The notes below the pieces were generated by a model. The model ran no database searches. It was not told where the DNA came from and saw nothing but the letters and a program-made list of their open reading frames with translations. Positions 8,030-14,605 of a stretch of 64,000 nt of DNA are shown in pieces (positions within the stretch are counted from its first letter, which is position 1; the number at the start of each line of letters is the position of its first letter). The stretch is taken from positions 1 to 64,000 of the forward strand of contig NZ_NEDJ01000009.1 in the NCBI RefSeq assembly GCF_002114285.1, given 5' to 3'. Source of the stretch: Halorubrum ezzemoulense DSM 17463 (GTDB lineage Archaea > Halobacteriota > Halobacteria > Halobacteriales > Haloferacaceae). The translations under genes and the position numbers were made by a program.

Positions 8030-9373
8030 CTACTCGGCGTACTCGTACTGGCGCTCGTTCATCCGCCCCCAGCCGGTGAAGACGAACTCCCCGTCGGGCT
8101 GGGTGAACTCCTCGACCTCGCGCCCGAGGTCGGCGTCGTACTCGTGGACGTCGTGGACGTCCTCGTACTCCTCCCACGTCAGGTCGTAGCGGGCGTCGAG
8201 CTGGTCGTCGATGTCGAGCCTCTCGATCTCGGCGCGCCACCCCTCTCGGATCGTCTCGGCGTGGATCTCGGCCTGCGCGCCCGAGCCGTAGGAAGCGACG
8301 AGCAGCGTGTCGCCGACGAACTCGCGGTCGCGGGTCAGGGCGTCTCGGAGGGCGCTCACGCGGGCAATGTGGACCGAACTGGTGTACCAGTTGCCGACCT
8401 CGCGAGAGAGGCCGAGCGTCGGCTCGACTGCCGTGTCGTACCACGTCTGGTACTGCTCGGTGGTCTTTAACTCGTCCATGTACCCGCGGATCGCCTCCTC
8501 GTAGGCCTCCCGGTCGTCGTACTCGCCTTCGCGGGGCTGGCGGCCGATCTCGTCGGCGAGCGCGTCCTCGTGTGCTGTATCGCGGATGACGTGACGGTAG
8601 GCGAGGAGCGCCGCCTTCCGGACCATGCCGGGGAACGGCGTATGGAACGGCGCGTACGCGAAGGCTTCCAGCTCGATGTCGTCCGTGACGGACTCGTAGT
8701 CTTCGAGGGCCTCGCGCATCCGGGAGAGGTACACCTGGACCGACCGCTTCCCGTCGACGCTGGGGAACTGCTGGTTCGGCTTGAGGAAGTCAGTCTCGTC
8801 CTTCGAGCCGTACCCCTGATCCGTCGAGAGCTCGACGATCGAAGGGTCCTCGTCGATCAGCATCGCGACGGCGCCGGCGCCCTGCGTCGCCTCGCCGGGG
8901 TCACCGCGAGCGTACAGCGCCGTGTCCGTGGTGATGACGAGCGCGGGGCGGTCGCGGTTCCGGCCGGCGCGAATCCAGTTGTACGCGTCGTCAATGGCCT
9001 GCGTTCCGGCGAGGCAGGCGAACTTGCGCTCGCCCTTGTTGGCGTGGGTGAAGTCGCCGTCGTACACCTGTTCGAGGCAGCCGGCGATATACGTCGACAC
9101 GGGCTTCGAGTGGTCGAACGCCGACTCGGTGGCGACGTCGATCCGGCCGACGTCCTCGGGTTCGAGCCCTTTCCGGTCCATCAGCCCCTTCGCGGCGTTC
9201 GCGCCCATCGTGACGATGTCCTCGTACACGTCGGGGAACGAGGAGTTAGTGAGCCCGAGCCCCTTCGTGTACTTCTCGGGGTCGTCGCCCTTCTCCGGCG
9301 CGAACGTGCCCGGCAGGTCGAGTTTGAGCTTCCCGGTCCAGATCTCGATGCCGTCGATCCCGACTGCGGTCAT
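8030..9373 (-). CDS. hmgB: Hydroxymethylglutaryl-CoA synthase
   Basis: The 447-aa enzyme condenses acetyl-CoA and acetoacetyl-CoA to HMG-CoA, the second step of the mevalonate route to archaeal isoprenoid lipids. The thiolase-fold active site is visible: Glu83 (ATESAFDHSKP), catalytic Cys120 (KFACLAGTQA) and the later FHTPFPGMV segment with the substrate-binding His. The GNWYTSSVHIARV and ASYGSGAQAE segments are typical of the family. It lies between S19e and a pilin-like gene, all on the minus strand, with more than 100 bp on each side, so it is probably transcribed alone. Homologs are similar to the bacterial mevalonate-pathway enzyme. Confidence 0.95.
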   Translation of the reverse strand: MTAVGIDGIEIWTGKLKLDLPGTFAPEKGDDPEKYTKGLGLTNSSFPDVYEDIVTMGANAAKGLMDRKGLEPEDVGRIDVATESAFDHSKPVSTYIAGCLEQVYDGDFTHANKGERKFACLAGTQAIDDAYNWIRAGRNRDRPALVITTDTALYARGDPGEATQGAGAVAMLIDEDPSIVELSTDQGYGSKDETDFLKPNQQFPSVDGKRSVQVYLSRMREALEDYESVTDDIELEAFAYAPFHTPFPGMVRKAALLAYRHVIRDTAHEDALADEIGRQPREGEYDDREAYEEAIRGYMDELKTTEQYQTWYDTAVEPTLGLSREVGNWYTSSVHIARVSALRDALTRDREFVGDTLLVASYGSGAQAEIHAETIREGWRAEIERLDIDDQLDARYDLTWEEYEDVHDVHEYDADLGREVEEFTQPDGEFVFTGWGRMNERQYEYAE

Positions 9374-9485
9374 ACACGGACGTTCATGCGGCCGGCATAT
9401 GGCTTTGTCGATGAGAAGTACGTTGATTGTGGAACACAGGCGGAGACTCTAGCGAGGAAGCGGGATGCGAGCGCGGCGATCGGCC

Positions 9486-11039
9486 TCAGTCCTCGTCACC
9501 GGCTTCAACGGTCGGATCGGGAGCGAACCACGCGCCGTCGGTCGTGACGGTTCCGCCGTCAGACGCGATCGCGATCGCGCCGTCGGATCCGAGCGCGGTC
9601 GCCTGGGCGCTGAACACGCCGTTCGTGAGGTCGATATCGTCCGCGGCGGACAGGTCGACGTCGCCGGGAGCCACGAGCGCCGTAGTGGTGACCGTAGCCC
9701 CGCGGGCGGCGATTCGGCCGCCCGAGTCGATATCGATGTCGCCGCCGGACAGACCGAGCCAGCCGGTGAACGAGGCGTCTATCCTCGCGCCAGCGATTGA
9801 GACATCCCCGTCCGCGTCAAGGTCGACCGACTCCGCCGACAGCAAGACCCCATCTCGAACCGTGATGCGGTCGGCCTCAGCAGAGAATTCCCCACGGATC
9901 TCTGCGTCGTCAAAGATGACGAGGTGGCCGTCGAACTCACCGCGATCCGCCAACTCCGCCGCAGAGAACGTCTCGTCGGCGGTCCCGTCCCCGTCACGGT
10001 CGACGTACGCGACGCCGTCGCTCTCGGGAGCAAGCACTTCGACGGTCGTCGTCGCCGTGTCGTTCTCGCTCGCGACCGCGAGTTCGACCGTTCCGACGTC
10101 CGTCGGGTCGGGACGCCACGTGATGGAGAGCTCTCGCCGCTCGCCGCCGGGGAGCGTGAGTGGCTCTGACTCGACGACAGCGCCGGCCACGGAAAACTCG
10201 ATCCGCTGGGTCCCCTCCTCGTCGCCGACGTTCTCGACGGTCGCGTTCACGGTGACCGGCTCGGTGCCGACGACGCGAGCCTCGGTATCGTCGATCCGGA
10301 CCTCGAACTCGGCGGGTTCGATGGGATCGAGCGTGACGTTGACAGTCTTCGTCCGGTTAGCTTCGACGGTGACGGACCGTGTCACCGCGAGGAAACCGGG
10401 CGCGGTCACTGAGAGGTCGTACTCGCCCGGTGCGAGCCCGTCGATCCGATATCCCCCACCGGATCCGGTCCGGGTCTCGGCGACGCGACCGGCGCCGTCG
10501 ACGACGACCGTCGCGCCCGAGAGGGGAGTGGCCACCTGCCGAAGTCCGAGCGACGCACCCGAGGCGACCCGCATCGACCTCGCGCCGGGGCCGAGGACGG
10601 TCCCCTCGATCGCGCCGGTCTCGACGCTCGGTTCGGGCGCCGGCGTCAGCGTCGCCCGCTCGATCTCCCCGCCCGAACCGTCGTGGTAGAGCCGGACCTC
10701 GTTCGACGCGTTCGCGACGAGCGCGTCCGAAAACGTGCGGCGGTCGCCCGGACCGAACTCGCCCGGCGGGGGCGCGAACGGGTAGCGAGTCGCGTTGCCG
10801 TCCGTCCTGACGACGACCGTCAGCTCGTCGTTCGGGAGCGCGTCGCCTCCCAAGTGGTCGACCCGGAGGTCGCTCCCGTCCGCGCTCAAGTCCGCGGAGA
10901 CGACAACCTCGTCGACGTTAGATCCTACGCCGCCGACGTAGGCAACCCCGATCGCGCTGGCGCTCACGACGAAGACGGCGAGCAGGAGGATGATTCCGAC
11001 CGTCTCGGACTGAGCGCGGGCGGTTGCGGGGCGAGGCAT
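9486..11039 (-). CDS. Pilin-like secreted multidomain protein (possible adhesin)
   Basis: The 517-aa product begins with a class III signal peptide: the processing site lies between Ala9 and Gln10 (ARA/QSETVG), followed by a hydrophobic helix to about residue 35, as in archaeal type IV pilins. Beyond it come a beta domain, a carboxypeptidase-regulatory-like domain (about 143-220, with GSGGGYRIDGLAPGEYDL), a CARDB/Ig-like domain (about 222-325) and a C-terminal region (345-517). In that last region, short strands repeat in the pattern (A/S)xSVDLDADGDVSI, which looks like a beta-solenoid. Most pilins are below 200 residues, so this is unusually long and may act as a minor pilin or adhesin. A TATA-like AATAAAATA lies at about 11076-11084 on the minus strand. 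Confidence 0.8.
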   Translation of the reverse strand: MPRPATARAQSETVGIILLLAVFVVSASAIGVAYVGGVGSNVDEVVVSADLSADGSDLRVDHLGGDALPNDELTVVVRTDGNATRYPFAPPPGEFGPGDRRTFSDALVANASNEVRLYHDGSGGEIERATLTPAPEPSVETGAIEGTVLGPGARSMRVASGASLGLRQVATPLSGATVVVDGAGRVAETRTGSGGGYRIDGLAPGEYDLSVTAPGFLAVTRSVTVEANRTKTVNVTLDPIEPAEFEVRIDDTEARVVGTEPVTVNATVENVGDEEGTQRIEFSVAGAVVESEPLTLPGGERRELSITWRPDPTDVGTVELAVASENDTATTTVEVLAPESDGVAYVDRDGDGTADETFSAAELADRGEFDGHLVIFDDAEIRGEFSAEADRITVRDGVLLSAESVDLDADGDVSIAGARIDASFTGWLGLSGGDIDIDSGGRIAARGATVTTTALVAPGDVDLSAADDIDLTNGVFSAQATALGSDGAIAIASDGGTVTTDGAWFAPDPTVEAGDED

Positions 11040-11498
11040 AGAGAGAACAGTCAGGTCAACTATTTCCGGTGCGGTATTTTATTATGCGGTCGCAGATATC
11101 AACAGCGATAAGCGTAGAAACTGAGACTTACTGCTACCCAACTAGCCGTTGGTAGCCCACTGAGAGTTCATCGCTGTTCCGGCGTGCCTCGTATCAGACT
11201 GTGACGTTCTGTTGGAATCGATTCTTTTCAGATCGAGAGAGGTATCTGAGTCCTATTCAGTCAGTGTTCGCGAACCGAGTTTGGTGTCGACTTCCTGCTA
11301 AATAACGATTTGATCCCAGCCAATTTATTTCAAGATCAGCCGTTTTTACGCATAGTCTCAGCTACTCGGTTAGATCTTAATACCGCGTTCTTTACCGCGG
11401 TCGCAATTGATCGCTCGTGAACTTGAATTACCTTTTGATAAAATACGTCGGTCATGGAGAGATGGCCCGATATAATCCCGTCAGCTGAGGCCGTTCGG
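11040..11498. other. Low-GC intergenic stretch between two pilin-like genes
   Basis: No convincing gene is found in these 459 bp. GC is far below the surroundings: 11221-11280 has 27 G+C of 60, while 12361-12420 has 43 of 60. It contains an imperfect hairpin near 11134-11157 (CTACCCAAC ... GTTGGTAG) and several stop codons in all frames. The low GC continues into the 3' part of the gene that ends at 11499. This suggests acquired or decayed DNA. Confidence 0.6.
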
Positions 11499-13343
11499 TT
11501 AGAGGGTCAGCAGGAATGTCTTACTGCTCCCATCACTAAATTGGAGAGTTAGTTCGACGTTTGCCTTGTTCATGTTCGCGTTCTGGTTACTGTCCCTGAA
11601 CTGGCCGAGCCGGACGTCCGCGCTGTTTCCGCCCGTGATCTGGAGCGTAGGGCTCAGCGTCGCCGTAGTGCCGACATCAATTTGCCCGCTGACTAACGTG
11701 GTGTCAGTTCCAGCATTGACGAACGTGTCACCTTCGGTGTCTTCGACGTTATCGACATCGGTATTCCCTGTGTTGGTCTCAACCGACTCAACTGTGATGT
11801 CGGTTATTTCGATGCTTTGTGTGTCCGGACCGGACGATCCGATGGTGAACGTGACATCGTTGTTTCCACCCGCCGTGTCTTCTCCGGTTACAGTCGTGCG
11901 GTCGGCCATCGTTCCTTGACCGCTCTCGATGACTCGCACCAGGAGTCTATCGACATCGTCACCCGCTGCTGCGTACACGTGGAATTCATCACCGACGTCC
12001 GCGTTGTTCGGGGAGAAGACGAGGGTGTCAGAGCCGTCGTGTTCTGGAGATGATAGTGGGTTCAAACTCGGAGAGCCCCCGTTTTGTAGCGGTGCGAAAG
12101 AATAATCTATTGTGGCGTCGTTAATCAGATCCCCGCTCTGTCGGTCAAATATCTGAACTTCGAGATCCGTATCGGTGTTCTCAGTGGCGTTCACCGGCGA
12201 CGATGGTATCCACCTGACATCGAACGTCTGATTTCCGGCTGTGCCGCCGCCCTCTGACACGTCGAAGGTGACCCGCTCGTAGGTCGGCCCGCCGGTCCCG
12301 TTGATCGTCGCGATGAGGGCCTCGGTCTCGTTAACTTCGAAGAACGCGCGCCCCCCGTCGCCGGTGGTGCGGTTCGCGCCGTCGAACGCGACCGTCGCGT
12401 CGGGCACCGGGTTGTTGTACCGGTCGCGCACCTCGACTGTGACCGTCTCTCCGACCGCGGCGCTCTCGGAGCCGACCGGCACGACGTACGCCGGCTCCGT
12501 CTTTCCGGTCGCGTCGAGCGACACCTCGGAGAGCGCCAGCCGATAAGGATCCGAACCGTTCGCCAGCGTGACGTTGATCGCCTCGCCGGTCGCGTTCCGC
12601 GTTGCGGTCGCGCCCGCCGGGAGCGCACCATTCCAGCGCTCCGCGAGGGCGGAGGCGTTCCCGACCGCGGTCGGGAGTTCGAGGGTGATCTGCCCGCCTC
12701 TCGGTTCGAGCGGAACCGTGGTGTCGCTCGCGGAGACGGCGCGCGGGTCGACGCTACGCGGAACGACGCCGGTTTCCGACACCGAGCCGCTCAGCGCGGT
12801 CAGCGAGATCCGCTCCTCGGAGACGACCGTCTGGCCGGTCCGGAGCAGGACCGCGTCGTCGAACTCGGCGGCGACGACGGAGTGCTCGTAGACGAGTTCG
12901 GGGGCGCCGTCGAACTCGTTGTACTCCGCGTCGTAGCGGAGCGAGCGCGTCTCGAACGAGGGACTCGTGTTCCAGAAGTCGCGGGCGTTCTGGTGGGCGC
13001 CGTCTCCGACCGTCGCGTTCAAGACCCGTATCGGCCCCGTCGGCTCCGTTTCGAGCGACCCCGACACGGGCGGCGGGTTGATGAAGAACGTCCGGGCCGG
13101 GTACCGCGTGCCGAGGCGGACCTGCGTCGACCCGGTCGAGCCCGTCGAACCGGCGCGGAGGACGTCGTTGCGGAGGTCGCCGAAGTCGTCCTCGACCTGC
13201 TGGCTGTGTTCGAACTCGACGTTCGCGTTCTCCGTCGGGACGACTTGAATCTGGAAGATTCCGAGCGCAACGATCAGGAACCCGAACAGGATCACCGTCC
13301 CGACCACGACCGACTGGCCTCGACGGTCGCGACTGAATCGCAT
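11499..13343 (-). CDS. Large pilin-like secreted protein with Ig-like domains
   Basis: The 614-aa product starts at the ATG at 13343, where a class III signal peptide is complete (RDRRG/QSVVVG, cleavage after Gly9) and is followed by a hydrophobic helix (VILFGFLIVALGIFQI). The extracellular part has repeated beta domains. A Big-type domain lies around residues 278-345 (VTVEVRDRYNNPVPDATVAF), with a second region around 360-480 and a Thr/Asn/Asp-rich C-terminal domain (about 490-614) with many N-x-T sites. The coding sequence is a mosaic: the 5' two-thirds is GC-rich like its neighbours, the 3' third (about 11499-12180) is low in GC. An upstream in-frame extension to 13532 encodes only the tandem repeat at 13431-13526 and is rejected. 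It is likely a surface filament or adhesion protein of unknown partner. Confidence 0.8.
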   Translation of the reverse strand: MRFSRDRRGQSVVVGTVILFGFLIVALGIFQIQVVPTENANVEFEHSQQVEDDFGDLRNDVLRAGSTGSTGSTQVRLGTRYPARTFFINPPPVSGSLETEPTGPIRVLNATVGDGAHQNARDFWNTSPSFETRSLRYDAEYNEFDGAPELVYEHSVVAAEFDDAVLLRTGQTVVSEERISLTALSGSVSETGVVPRSVDPRAVSASDTTVPLEPRGGQITLELPTAVGNASALAERWNGALPAGATATRNATGEAINVTLANGSDPYRLALSEVSLDATGKTEPAYVVPVGSESAAVGETVTVEVRDRYNNPVPDATVAFDGANRTTGDGGRAFFEVNETEALIATINGTGGPTYERVTFDVSEGGGTAGNQTFDVRWIPSSPVNATENTDTDLEVQIFDRQSGDLINDATIDYSFAPLQNGGSPSLNPLSSPEHDGSDTLVFSPNNADVGDEFHVYAAAGDDVDRLLVRVIESGQGTMADRTTVTGEDTAGGNNDVTFTIGSSGPDTQSIEITDITVESVETNTGNTDVDNVEDTEGDTFVNAGTDTTLVSGQIDVGTTATLSPTLQITGGNSADVRLGQFRDSNQNANMNKANVELTLQFSDGSSKTFLLTL

Positions 13344-13375: not shown

Positions 13376-13430
13376 TCTCCGTCGACCTCTCAGTCACGAT
13401 ACTCGGACGACAACTGCGGAGACCGGGGAT

Positions 13431-13526
13431 CATCCGCCCGTCCGTCGCTCGGTTCATCCGTTCGCCCGTCGTTCGGTTCATCCGTTCGCCCGTCGTTCGG
13501 TTCATCCGCCCGTCCGTCGCTCGGTC
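13431..13526. repeat. Four tandem 24-bp units
   Basis: Units begin with CATCCG at 13431, 13455, 13479 and 13503. The two inner units are identical to each other. The two outer units resemble each other more than the inner ones (CCGTCGCTCGG in place of CCGTCGTTCGG). The fourth unit encodes the last residues and stop of the 63-aa membrane protein on the minus strand, so the array looks like serial duplication of that gene's 3' end. It lies upstream of the pilin-like promoter at 13367. Confidence 0.9.
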
Positions 13527-13879: not shown

Positions 13880-14605
13880 ATGGCGAAACAGCCGCACCTG
13901 CTGGTCGAGGAGGGCGATGTCCACGAGATCGCGGTCATCCCGGGCGATCCGGGTCGCGTCGACCGGATCGCCGACCTGTGTGACGACAGCGAGGTCGTCG
14001 CGCAGAACCGCGAGTACAAAGTCGTCAACGCGACCTACGACGGGGTCGACCTCACGATCTGCTCGACCGGGATCGGCTGCCCGTCGGCCGCCATCGCCGT
14101 GGAGGAGCTCTCGCGGGTCGGCGTGGAGACGTTCGTCCGGTGTGGCACCTGCGGCGCGCTCCAGCCGGAGATGGAGGTCGGCGACATGGTCGTCGCGACG
14201 GGCGCGGCCAAGGAGGAGGGGACGAGCAAGCGGTACGAGTCGGCGAACTACCCGGCGGTCCCGGACTACGACGTACTCACCGGCTTGGTCGATGCGGCCG
14301 AGGACAACGACGAGGAGATCCACGTCGGCCCCATCGTCTCGGACGACGCGTTCTACAACGAGGACGACGAGTACGTCGAGGACTGGAACGACGCGAACCT
14401 GCTCGCGATCGAGATGGAGGCGGCGACCGTCTTCTCGCTCGCGCGGCGCAAGGGGCTCGCGGCGGGCGCCATCTGTACGGTGGACGGTAACCTCGTCGCG
14501 GGCACGCAGAAGGGGGCAGACTCCGACGACGAACTACCGGAGAAGGCGAAGGACAACGTCGAGCGCGCGATCCGGATCACGCTGAACGCGATCACCTCGC
14601 TGTAA
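13880..14605 (+). CDS. udp: Nucleoside (uridine-type) phosphorylase
   Basis: The 241-aa protein is a full-length member of the purine/uridine phosphorylase (PNP/UDP) family. It has VIPGDPGRVDRIADL near residue 19 (phosphate binding), STGIGCPSAAIAVEEL near 63, and AIEMEAATVFSLARR near 180 carrying the Glu-Met-Glu ribose-binding motif. Members cleave nucleosides with phosphate to a base and ribose-1-phosphate, for salvage or for pentose degradation in archaea. Base preference cannot be fixed from sequence alone; uridine is the usual annotation. The ATG at 13880 gives the conserved start MAKQPHLLV. It converges with the UPF0179 gene. Confidence 0.9.
   Translation: MAKQPHLLVEEGDVHEIAVIPGDPGRVDRIADLCDDSEVVAQNREYKVVNATYDGVDLTICSTGIGCPSAAIAVEELSRVGVETFVRCGTCGALQPEMEVGDMVVATGAAKEEGTSKRYESANYPAVPDYDVLTGLVDAAEDNDEEIHVGPIVSDDAFYNEDDEYVEDWNDANLLAIEMEAATVFSLARRKGLAAGAICTVDGNLVAGTQKGADSDDELPEKAKDNVERAIRITLNAITSL

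Follow-up and report, generated by a model that had tools for sequence, protein, structure and literature searches.

VARTIG, the VARiable Thermococcales IG module (Makarova et al. 2021, PMC8416519), is built around an archaeal Ig surface protein that is encoded beside a conserved gene and carries a hypervariable C-terminal Ig domain subject to recombination between species. In the available text of that paper, searches by PSI-BLAST with the VARTIG protein, through CARDB neighbourhoods and with neighbouring E-set proteins gave no closely similar module in other archaea, and Ig domains of comparable variability are not reported outside Thermococcales. Two haloarchaeal systems are related by what they exchange. 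In the homeocassettes of Halorubrum ezzemoulense (Feng et al. 2024, PMC11078007), divergent homologous alleles are replaced between near-identical core genes, and surface components are suggested there as virus receptors. In the cell-wall island of Haloquadratum walsbyi (Martin-Cuadrado et al. 2015, PMC4535781), surface glycoprotein genes are diversified by homologous recombination, which that paper interprets as virus avoidance. By analogy, both appear to reflect, on the scale of whole islands, the same evolutionary process as the gene described below. The haloarchaeal DUF7289 or type IV pilin-like proteins offer a further comparison; a mostly open-access search returned no literature on DUF7289 by name, nor on the locus that we describe here.

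This locus lies in H. ezzemoulense DSM 17463, at 11499–13343 on the minus strand of the window (the whole 64,000-nucleotide stretch of DNA analysed), with the ATG at 13343, the stop codon at 11499–11501 and a 614-aa translation of the open reading frame. Its product is most likely a pilin-like surface protein anchored in the membrane, with outer Ig-like and beta-rich modules that lineages exchange. Like VARTIG it has a hypervariable, exchanged C-terminus, with an Ig fold predicted for the first tail module of the window protein and bactofilin-like matches in other tails; it differs in belonging to another archaeal group, in its pilin-like N-terminus and in its flanks, udp and hmgB. The VARTIG search, as the available text gives it, requires at least 1000 aa, whereas the family here spans 399–906 aa; the conservation plot in the same paper uses proteins over 700 aa, a length that some members exceed. 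VARTIG's trailing variable genes, including a small Ig protein resembling the C-terminus of the large one, have no equivalent here, as hmgB begins no more than 200 bases downstream in 26 of the 41 genomes compared and no second tail was found in the window's own genome. Given the size and the missing trailing small Ig genes, the locus works like VARTIG but is not a member. The homeocassettes (PMC11078007) are islands within one species and the H. walsbyi island (PMC4535781), as far as the available text of each describes it, is large and includes S-layer genes, with no mention of the gene treated here; in the present case a single gene is replaced, and often only its 3' part. With the DUF7289 and type IV pilin-like proteins the window protein shares an N-terminal RGQS motif, a hydrophobic helix and a sub-threshold DUF7289 match, and it differs from them in having no Pilin_N match, in being larger and in carrying tandem Ig-like and other beta modules.

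The N-terminal RGQS motif (residues 8–11; 13311–13322, minus strand; pattern match) is one that we take to be a class III, prepilin peptidase-type signal, and a motif of this type occurs within the first 30 residues of 41/41 family proteins. Pfam DUF7289 (PF23960) aligns to residues 8–77 only, at 23.5 bits against a cut-off of 27; Pilin_N (PF07790) gives no match to the 614-aa protein at E ≤ 1 and does match the gene downstream. An AlphaFold2 model (mean pLDDT 75) predicts a long N-terminal helix at residues 10–67 (13143–13316, minus), a likely pilin-like membrane anchor that recurs at residues 9–67 in the second allele modelled. Motif and predicted fold together suggest a prepilin-peptidase substrate. 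Immediately 5' of the ATG, four copies of a 24-base G+C-rich tandem repeat (13430–13525, 88% match) fall within a longer GTG-start reading frame.

Modelled strands place a first Ig-like (Big_1/YtkA-like) domain at residues 286–363 (12255–12488, minus), at the end of the part shared with relatives; the YtkA match to residues 288–328 is weak and below its cut-off, and Big_1 matches 15 of 28 family members at E ≤ 0.01. A low-confidence, Gly-rich linker (residues 365–371; 12231–12251, minus) separates this domain from a second Ig-like domain, variable tail module 1 (residues 374–472; 11928–12224, minus), assigned from the model and structural matches. Variable tail module 2 (residues 480–614; 11502–11906, minus) is beta-rich, terminal and poorly modelled, with low confidence. 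Of 52 genomes in the genus, the window's own among them, 51 have a match to the protein at E ≤ 0.001; some of these matches are short or paralogous. The nearest named relative by this protein is H. californiense, 92% identical over residues 1–375 and carrying the window's tail (97%). Mean identity over 29 proteins is 90% in residues 1–25 and 19–28% beyond residue 376, and the best-kept part of the gene across the family is the first ~90 residues.

We compared 41 genes, one per genome from 41 Halorubrum-clade genomes, chosen by a DRRGQS-type N-terminus: the window, seven regions (H. californiense among them) and 33 further loci. Excluded before counting were duplicates of one locus, one gene running into N (L086), other genera (L087–L089 and L096), genes with another N-terminal motif (L105, L107–L112), contig-end fragments or short frames (L106, L113, L114) and same-genus genomes from which no long region was retrieved. 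The genes with the other motif (L105, L107–L112) form a paralogous group with an N-terminus like DDNRAVxxVIGVVILF and no hmgB match in the DNA examined.

All 41 genes lie upstream of hmgB in the same orientation, one fixed place across the Halorubrum clade; adjacency to hmgB was not a selection criterion and had already been seen in 20 regions before the selection was made. In the window hmgB, encoding HMG-CoA synthase, lies at 8030–9373 (minus; NCBIfam NF041302, 861.9 bits against a cut-off of 800). The gap to it is under 200 bases in those 26 genomes, 275–951 bases in four, and in 11, including the window, a second pilin-like gene intervenes (9486–11039, minus; Pfam matches to Pilin_N, CarboxypepD_reg and CARDB). 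A downstream hmgB is likewise seen in four relatives belonging to other genera, three of them Halobaculum and one a MAG. On the other side, a uridine phosphorylase-like gene, udp (13880–14605, plus; best match TIGR01718, sub-threshold at 212.8 against 280.3), is upstream in 38 of the 41 genomes, within the DNA examined. In H. sodomense (L095) udp is 6.4 kb from the gene, not about 0.5 kb, and several others show a spacing of 2–3 kb, a second insertion-prone spot on the upstream side. Halorubrum sp. 48-1-W (L072), whose hmgB match is fragmentary, was left off the hmgB tree (40/41 rows) and the correlations and kept in the tail grouping; its 13,231-base contig (L042/L072) has two partial hmgB stretches near the end, a duplication or an assembly artefact.

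Alignment of these genes shows a conserved signal and anchor, a variable middle and tails of many unrelated or mosaic types. By BLAST score ratio the 41 tails fall into 15 groups, with sizes 9, 7, 7, 5, 2 and 2 plus nine singletons. The initial annotation, which had flagged the 3' third of the window gene (11499–12200) as a swapped tip domain, expected a comparison between strains to give a constant N-terminus and a variable C-terminus; between species, with one genome of each, this is what we see. Its proposal of C-terminal exchange proves largely right, on four kinds of evidence: a homology break, unrelated tails on near-identical genes, tail modules shared across dissimilar genes and a conversion tract.

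The break is sharp in the window. Against the seven closest relatives that carry other tails (L032–L038), DNA similarity ends at 12210–12262 (12245, 12217, 12243, 12247, 12210, 12216 and 12262, in that order), within the linker at 12231–12251 or within about 20 bases of it, and for three relatives (G024, H. trapanicum and H. coriense) at 12243–12247. Against G024, protein identity is 80–96% per 50 residues over residues 1–350, then 42% and less. Similarity returns at 11018–11053, at the start of the next gene, in those six of the seven relatives that possess it. The second pilin-like gene beginning there may itself vary in its C-terminal half: compared with H. californiense its 5' part aligns, and 10064–10416 and 9435–9896 have no DNA alignment.

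Composition gives the same boundary. The G+C counts of the initial annotation are exact (28/60 at 11501–11560 and 43/60 at 12361–12420), and G+C is 54.6% over 11499–12200, 68.7% in the rest of the gene and 70.5% in the window. The best single change point is 12235 (54.2% against 69.3%), inside the predicted linker, with a log-likelihood gain of 21.7 against a maximum of 7.9 in 500 codon-order permutations; composition, homology and structure, computed separately, agree within ~30 bases. Among 702-base stretches taken every 50 bases across the whole window, 1.0% are equally low in G+C, and all 17 starts of stretches at or below 56.5% fall in this single region. Fourfold-site G+C also falls (0.67 in the tail against 0.93 in the middle), so the low value is more than an amino-acid effect. 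The claim of a mosaic step is partly sustained. The step is real and sharp, but it is not limited to the gene, running on through the 459-base intergenic region to ~11050 (11040–11498 is a low-G+C intergenic stretch that, by composition and DNA comparison, differs together with the tail), and a gradient of this kind is genus-wide: tail is below middle at fourfold sites in 35 of 41 genes, and below hmgB in 41 of 41. The window's step is one case of this gradient; it marks the exchanged part, yet alone would not prove exchange. A uniformly conserved full-length gene with the same step, named at the outset as the observation that would speak against exchange, is not what relatives show: the fall in G+C is common among them, and the gene is not uniform. 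The tail is Thr/Asn-rich as described (Thr 13.8% against 9.3% in the rest of the protein, Asn 7.8% against 4.9%), and the supposed abundance of glycosylation sites did not hold up, with three N-X-S/T sequons in its 269 residues against eight in the other 345, and one inside 11499–12200.

Across the family, whole-gene and tail alleles differ between lineages as DNA blocks. On one side the blocks end within the 5' stretch that the genes share; on the other they end within or close to the conserved gene that follows, which is hmgB or, for the window's group, the second pilin-like gene. The sister species G001 and H. halodurans are 99% identical in hmgB, 98% in N1 (residues 1–90) and 95% in the middle, and their tails (525 and 271 aa) have no BLASTP match at E 1e-3; homology returns ~60 bases before hmgB. 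H. kocurii and H. lipolyticum combine 96% identity in hmgB and 100% in N1 with 79% in the middle and unmatched tails. Conversely, similar tails sit behind unlike middles: JWXQ-INN 858 and H. salinum are 76% identical over 105 aa of tail and 20% in the middle, H. lipolyticum and H. distributum 61% over 180 aa of tail and 24% in the middle. In its first tail module, H. lipolyticum instead resembles Boch-26 (63% identity). H. kocurii and H. alkaliphilum differ by two mismatches over positions 41–2588 from the ATG (2.55 kb), a tract that ends ~120 bases into hmgB, in flanks of 82–88% identity where alignable (lower in the upstream intergenic part). Judging by its sequence, this tract is the footprint of an interspecies gene conversion, running from the conserved anchor code into hmgB. 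Divergent alleles beside a near-identical flanking gene are thus seen between close species, one genome per species being compared.

Pairwise counts, in which sequence pairs are not independent, place most breaks alike. Fifty-two pairs have middles at least 70% alike and align from the gene start; 14 of them stay aligned throughout, and in the other 38 DNA similarity is lost short of 93% of the gene. Thirty of these 38 breaks cluster around the position of window residue 345 (−37 to +38 residues), two come ~130 residues beyond it, and six lie far out in otherwise similar tails. The exact place varies by pair, sometimes within the first Ig-like domain and mostly near the linker.

The flanking genes agree with each other and do not predict the tail. 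Relatedness by udp and by hmgB correlates at rho 0.86 (666 pairs), and the gene beyond hmgB agrees moderately with hmgB (rho 0.62), whereas flanking genes against middle or tail similarity give rho −0.02 to 0.05, and against N1 a weak 0.07–0.15. Tail group changes 15 times on the hmgB tree and nine times on the middle-part tree (31 labelled rows; minimum five), compared with a mean of 18.7 and minima of 16 and 15 in 300 label shuffles, none as low as observed. Vertical inheritance therefore also contributes, tails being inherited for a time.

The rival that fares least badly, although we consider it improbable, dispenses with exchange: the tail evolves fast under relaxed constraint and mutation bias lowers its G+C. 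Mean fourfold-site G+C does drop steadily over the 41 genes, from 0.94 in hmgB through 0.81 in N1 and 0.75 in the middle to 0.63 in the tail, and the window's tail module 1 is still about 40–46% identical to those of near relatives over 117–131 residues, so a fast-diverging module could explain part of the window's break. On that similarity the module is a divergent homologue of the relatives' module, not a foreign one. Tail module 2 is homologous mainly to that of MAG LUM.57, whose whole tail is 38% identical over 279 columns and whose middle is only 52% identical to the window's. For the family as a whole, relaxed divergence is contradicted by the unrelated tails of G001 and H. halodurans behind middles 95% alike, by the similar tails behind unlike middles and by the near-identity tract in two species; divergence by itself does not leave the distal parts of a locus more similar than its proximal parts.

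Less probable again is a one-off insertion, into the 3' end of this one gene, of a low-G+C mobile element or provirus fragment of foreign origin. The low-G+C block of ~1.2 kb (11.05–12.24 kb) has sharp edges against the nearest relatives, but those relatives have tails in the same place, mostly of lowered G+C as counted above, module 1 is homologous between them, and H. californiense has the same tail. The edges carry one 15-nt direct and one 18-nt inverted repeat pair and no long or notable repeat; we judged these near chance, without a formal test. Seven pattern matches arose when viral contigs were searched with the tail and none was confirmed, a single-sequence query reaching close relatives only; the whole protein had no match among phages. 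Six haloarchaeal plasmid records match, all below 60% identity and best within residues 1–370. A tail relative is present in 15 of 170 genomes at family level and in 19 of 392 at order level, each count taking in the window's own genome, and no donor of the window's tail was identified among them; beyond H. californiense the best-scoring is G043, at 39% identity.

Programmed switching within one genome, by site-specific recombination or silent cassettes as in phase-variable pili, is equally hard to credit. Modular tails and the clustering of breaks around residue 345 would suit it, but the window's own genome contains no second copy or silent tail at E ≤ 0.001, the single match with either the whole protein or the tail as query being the gene itself, in a draft of 155 contigs that could hide copies; break points also vary by pair, and the edges are without a long repeat. 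Least probable of all is a polymorphic-toxin-like system of conserved carrier, variable C-terminal toxin and adjacent immunity gene, which shares the layout of a constant N-terminus with a replaceable C-terminus, but for which the gap of under 200 bases before hmgB in 26 of 41 genomes leaves little room for an immunity gene (the other 15 have 275–951 bases or another gene there), while no known toxin family is among the 12 that 28 members match in Pfam at E ≤ 0.01, and the known tail folds are Ig-like or bactofilin-like.

Exchange of the outer modules, the reading that we prefer, would proceed by ordinary homologous recombination (gene conversion), with homology arms provided by the conserved stretch that codes for the anchor and by the conserved gene downstream. 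Promiscuous DNA exchange is described for haloarchaea in the available text of PMC3988388 and PMC4500145. The low G+C of the tails may reflect a roaming gene pool of their own. Prepilin peptidase would process the protein, which would be exposed beyond the S-layer either singly or as part of a pilus, as predicted from motif and fold, and replacing its outer end would then probably change what sticks to or infects the cell. Selection by viruses or contact partners could keep rare tails advantageous: in the available text of PMC10544981 the receptor of a tailed virus in H. lacusprofundi is an S-layer protein, which by analogy makes virus selection on variable tails plausible.

A bolder reading, possible though in our view doubtful, is that the locus is a haloarchaeal counterpart of VARTIG, serving the whole genus as a recognition system at a single locus: a pilin-anchored Ig-like rod with an interchangeable tip (Ig, beta-sandwich or bactofilin-like solenoid), traded across species between anchor DNA and hmgB, the tip deciding virus attachment, mating or kin recognition. 

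What the locus shows is a protein comparable to VARTIG, with a constant anchor and a swapped tip, in a haloarchaeal genus that is widely cultured. Because housekeeping genes flank it at a fixed place, a single primer pair could serve to type the tip across most Halorubrum strains, so that tip type could be compared directly with virus host range, preference in mating or adhesion.

Structure searches bear on what the tips are. SbsC, an S-layer protein, ranks among the top single-domain matches to the modelled tail module 1 (for example 4uj6; Z 11.3, 2.4 Å over 97 residues), followed by Sap and the adhesin InvE (Z about 10.4), in VIA-align lists that are compatible with other folds too; Foldseek against the PDB returned long multi-Ig chains with TM-scores of 0.05–0.26, from which no more than the presence of tandem Ig-like domains can be read. 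In the H. lipolyticum model, confidence is again low after the first Ig-like domain (residues 373–390), and residues of about 295–380 give invasin and macroglobulin-type domain matches. Its shared first tail module ends at residue 514 and the next begins at 511–536, further out the model being unreliable (538–688 under 50). Bactofilin matches the distal tail, above the Pfam cut-off, in five of 28 members (H. aquaticum, H. cibi, H. halophilum, Halobellus captivus and H. rubrum; L073, L083, L084, L085 and L090); one kind of anchor thus carries tips of more than one fold class. Modules related to tail module 2 also occur in other genera. Six regions with distant relatives of the tail were inspected: G248 gave no match on re-search, G447 and G335 have short or interrupted frames without an N-terminus of the same kind, and in G399, G160 and G354 the module is in frame with such an N-terminus. 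The region in G160, from another genus (L118; G160:C1:2432000-2436500), apparently has two tandem copies of the terminal tail module, according to its translation.
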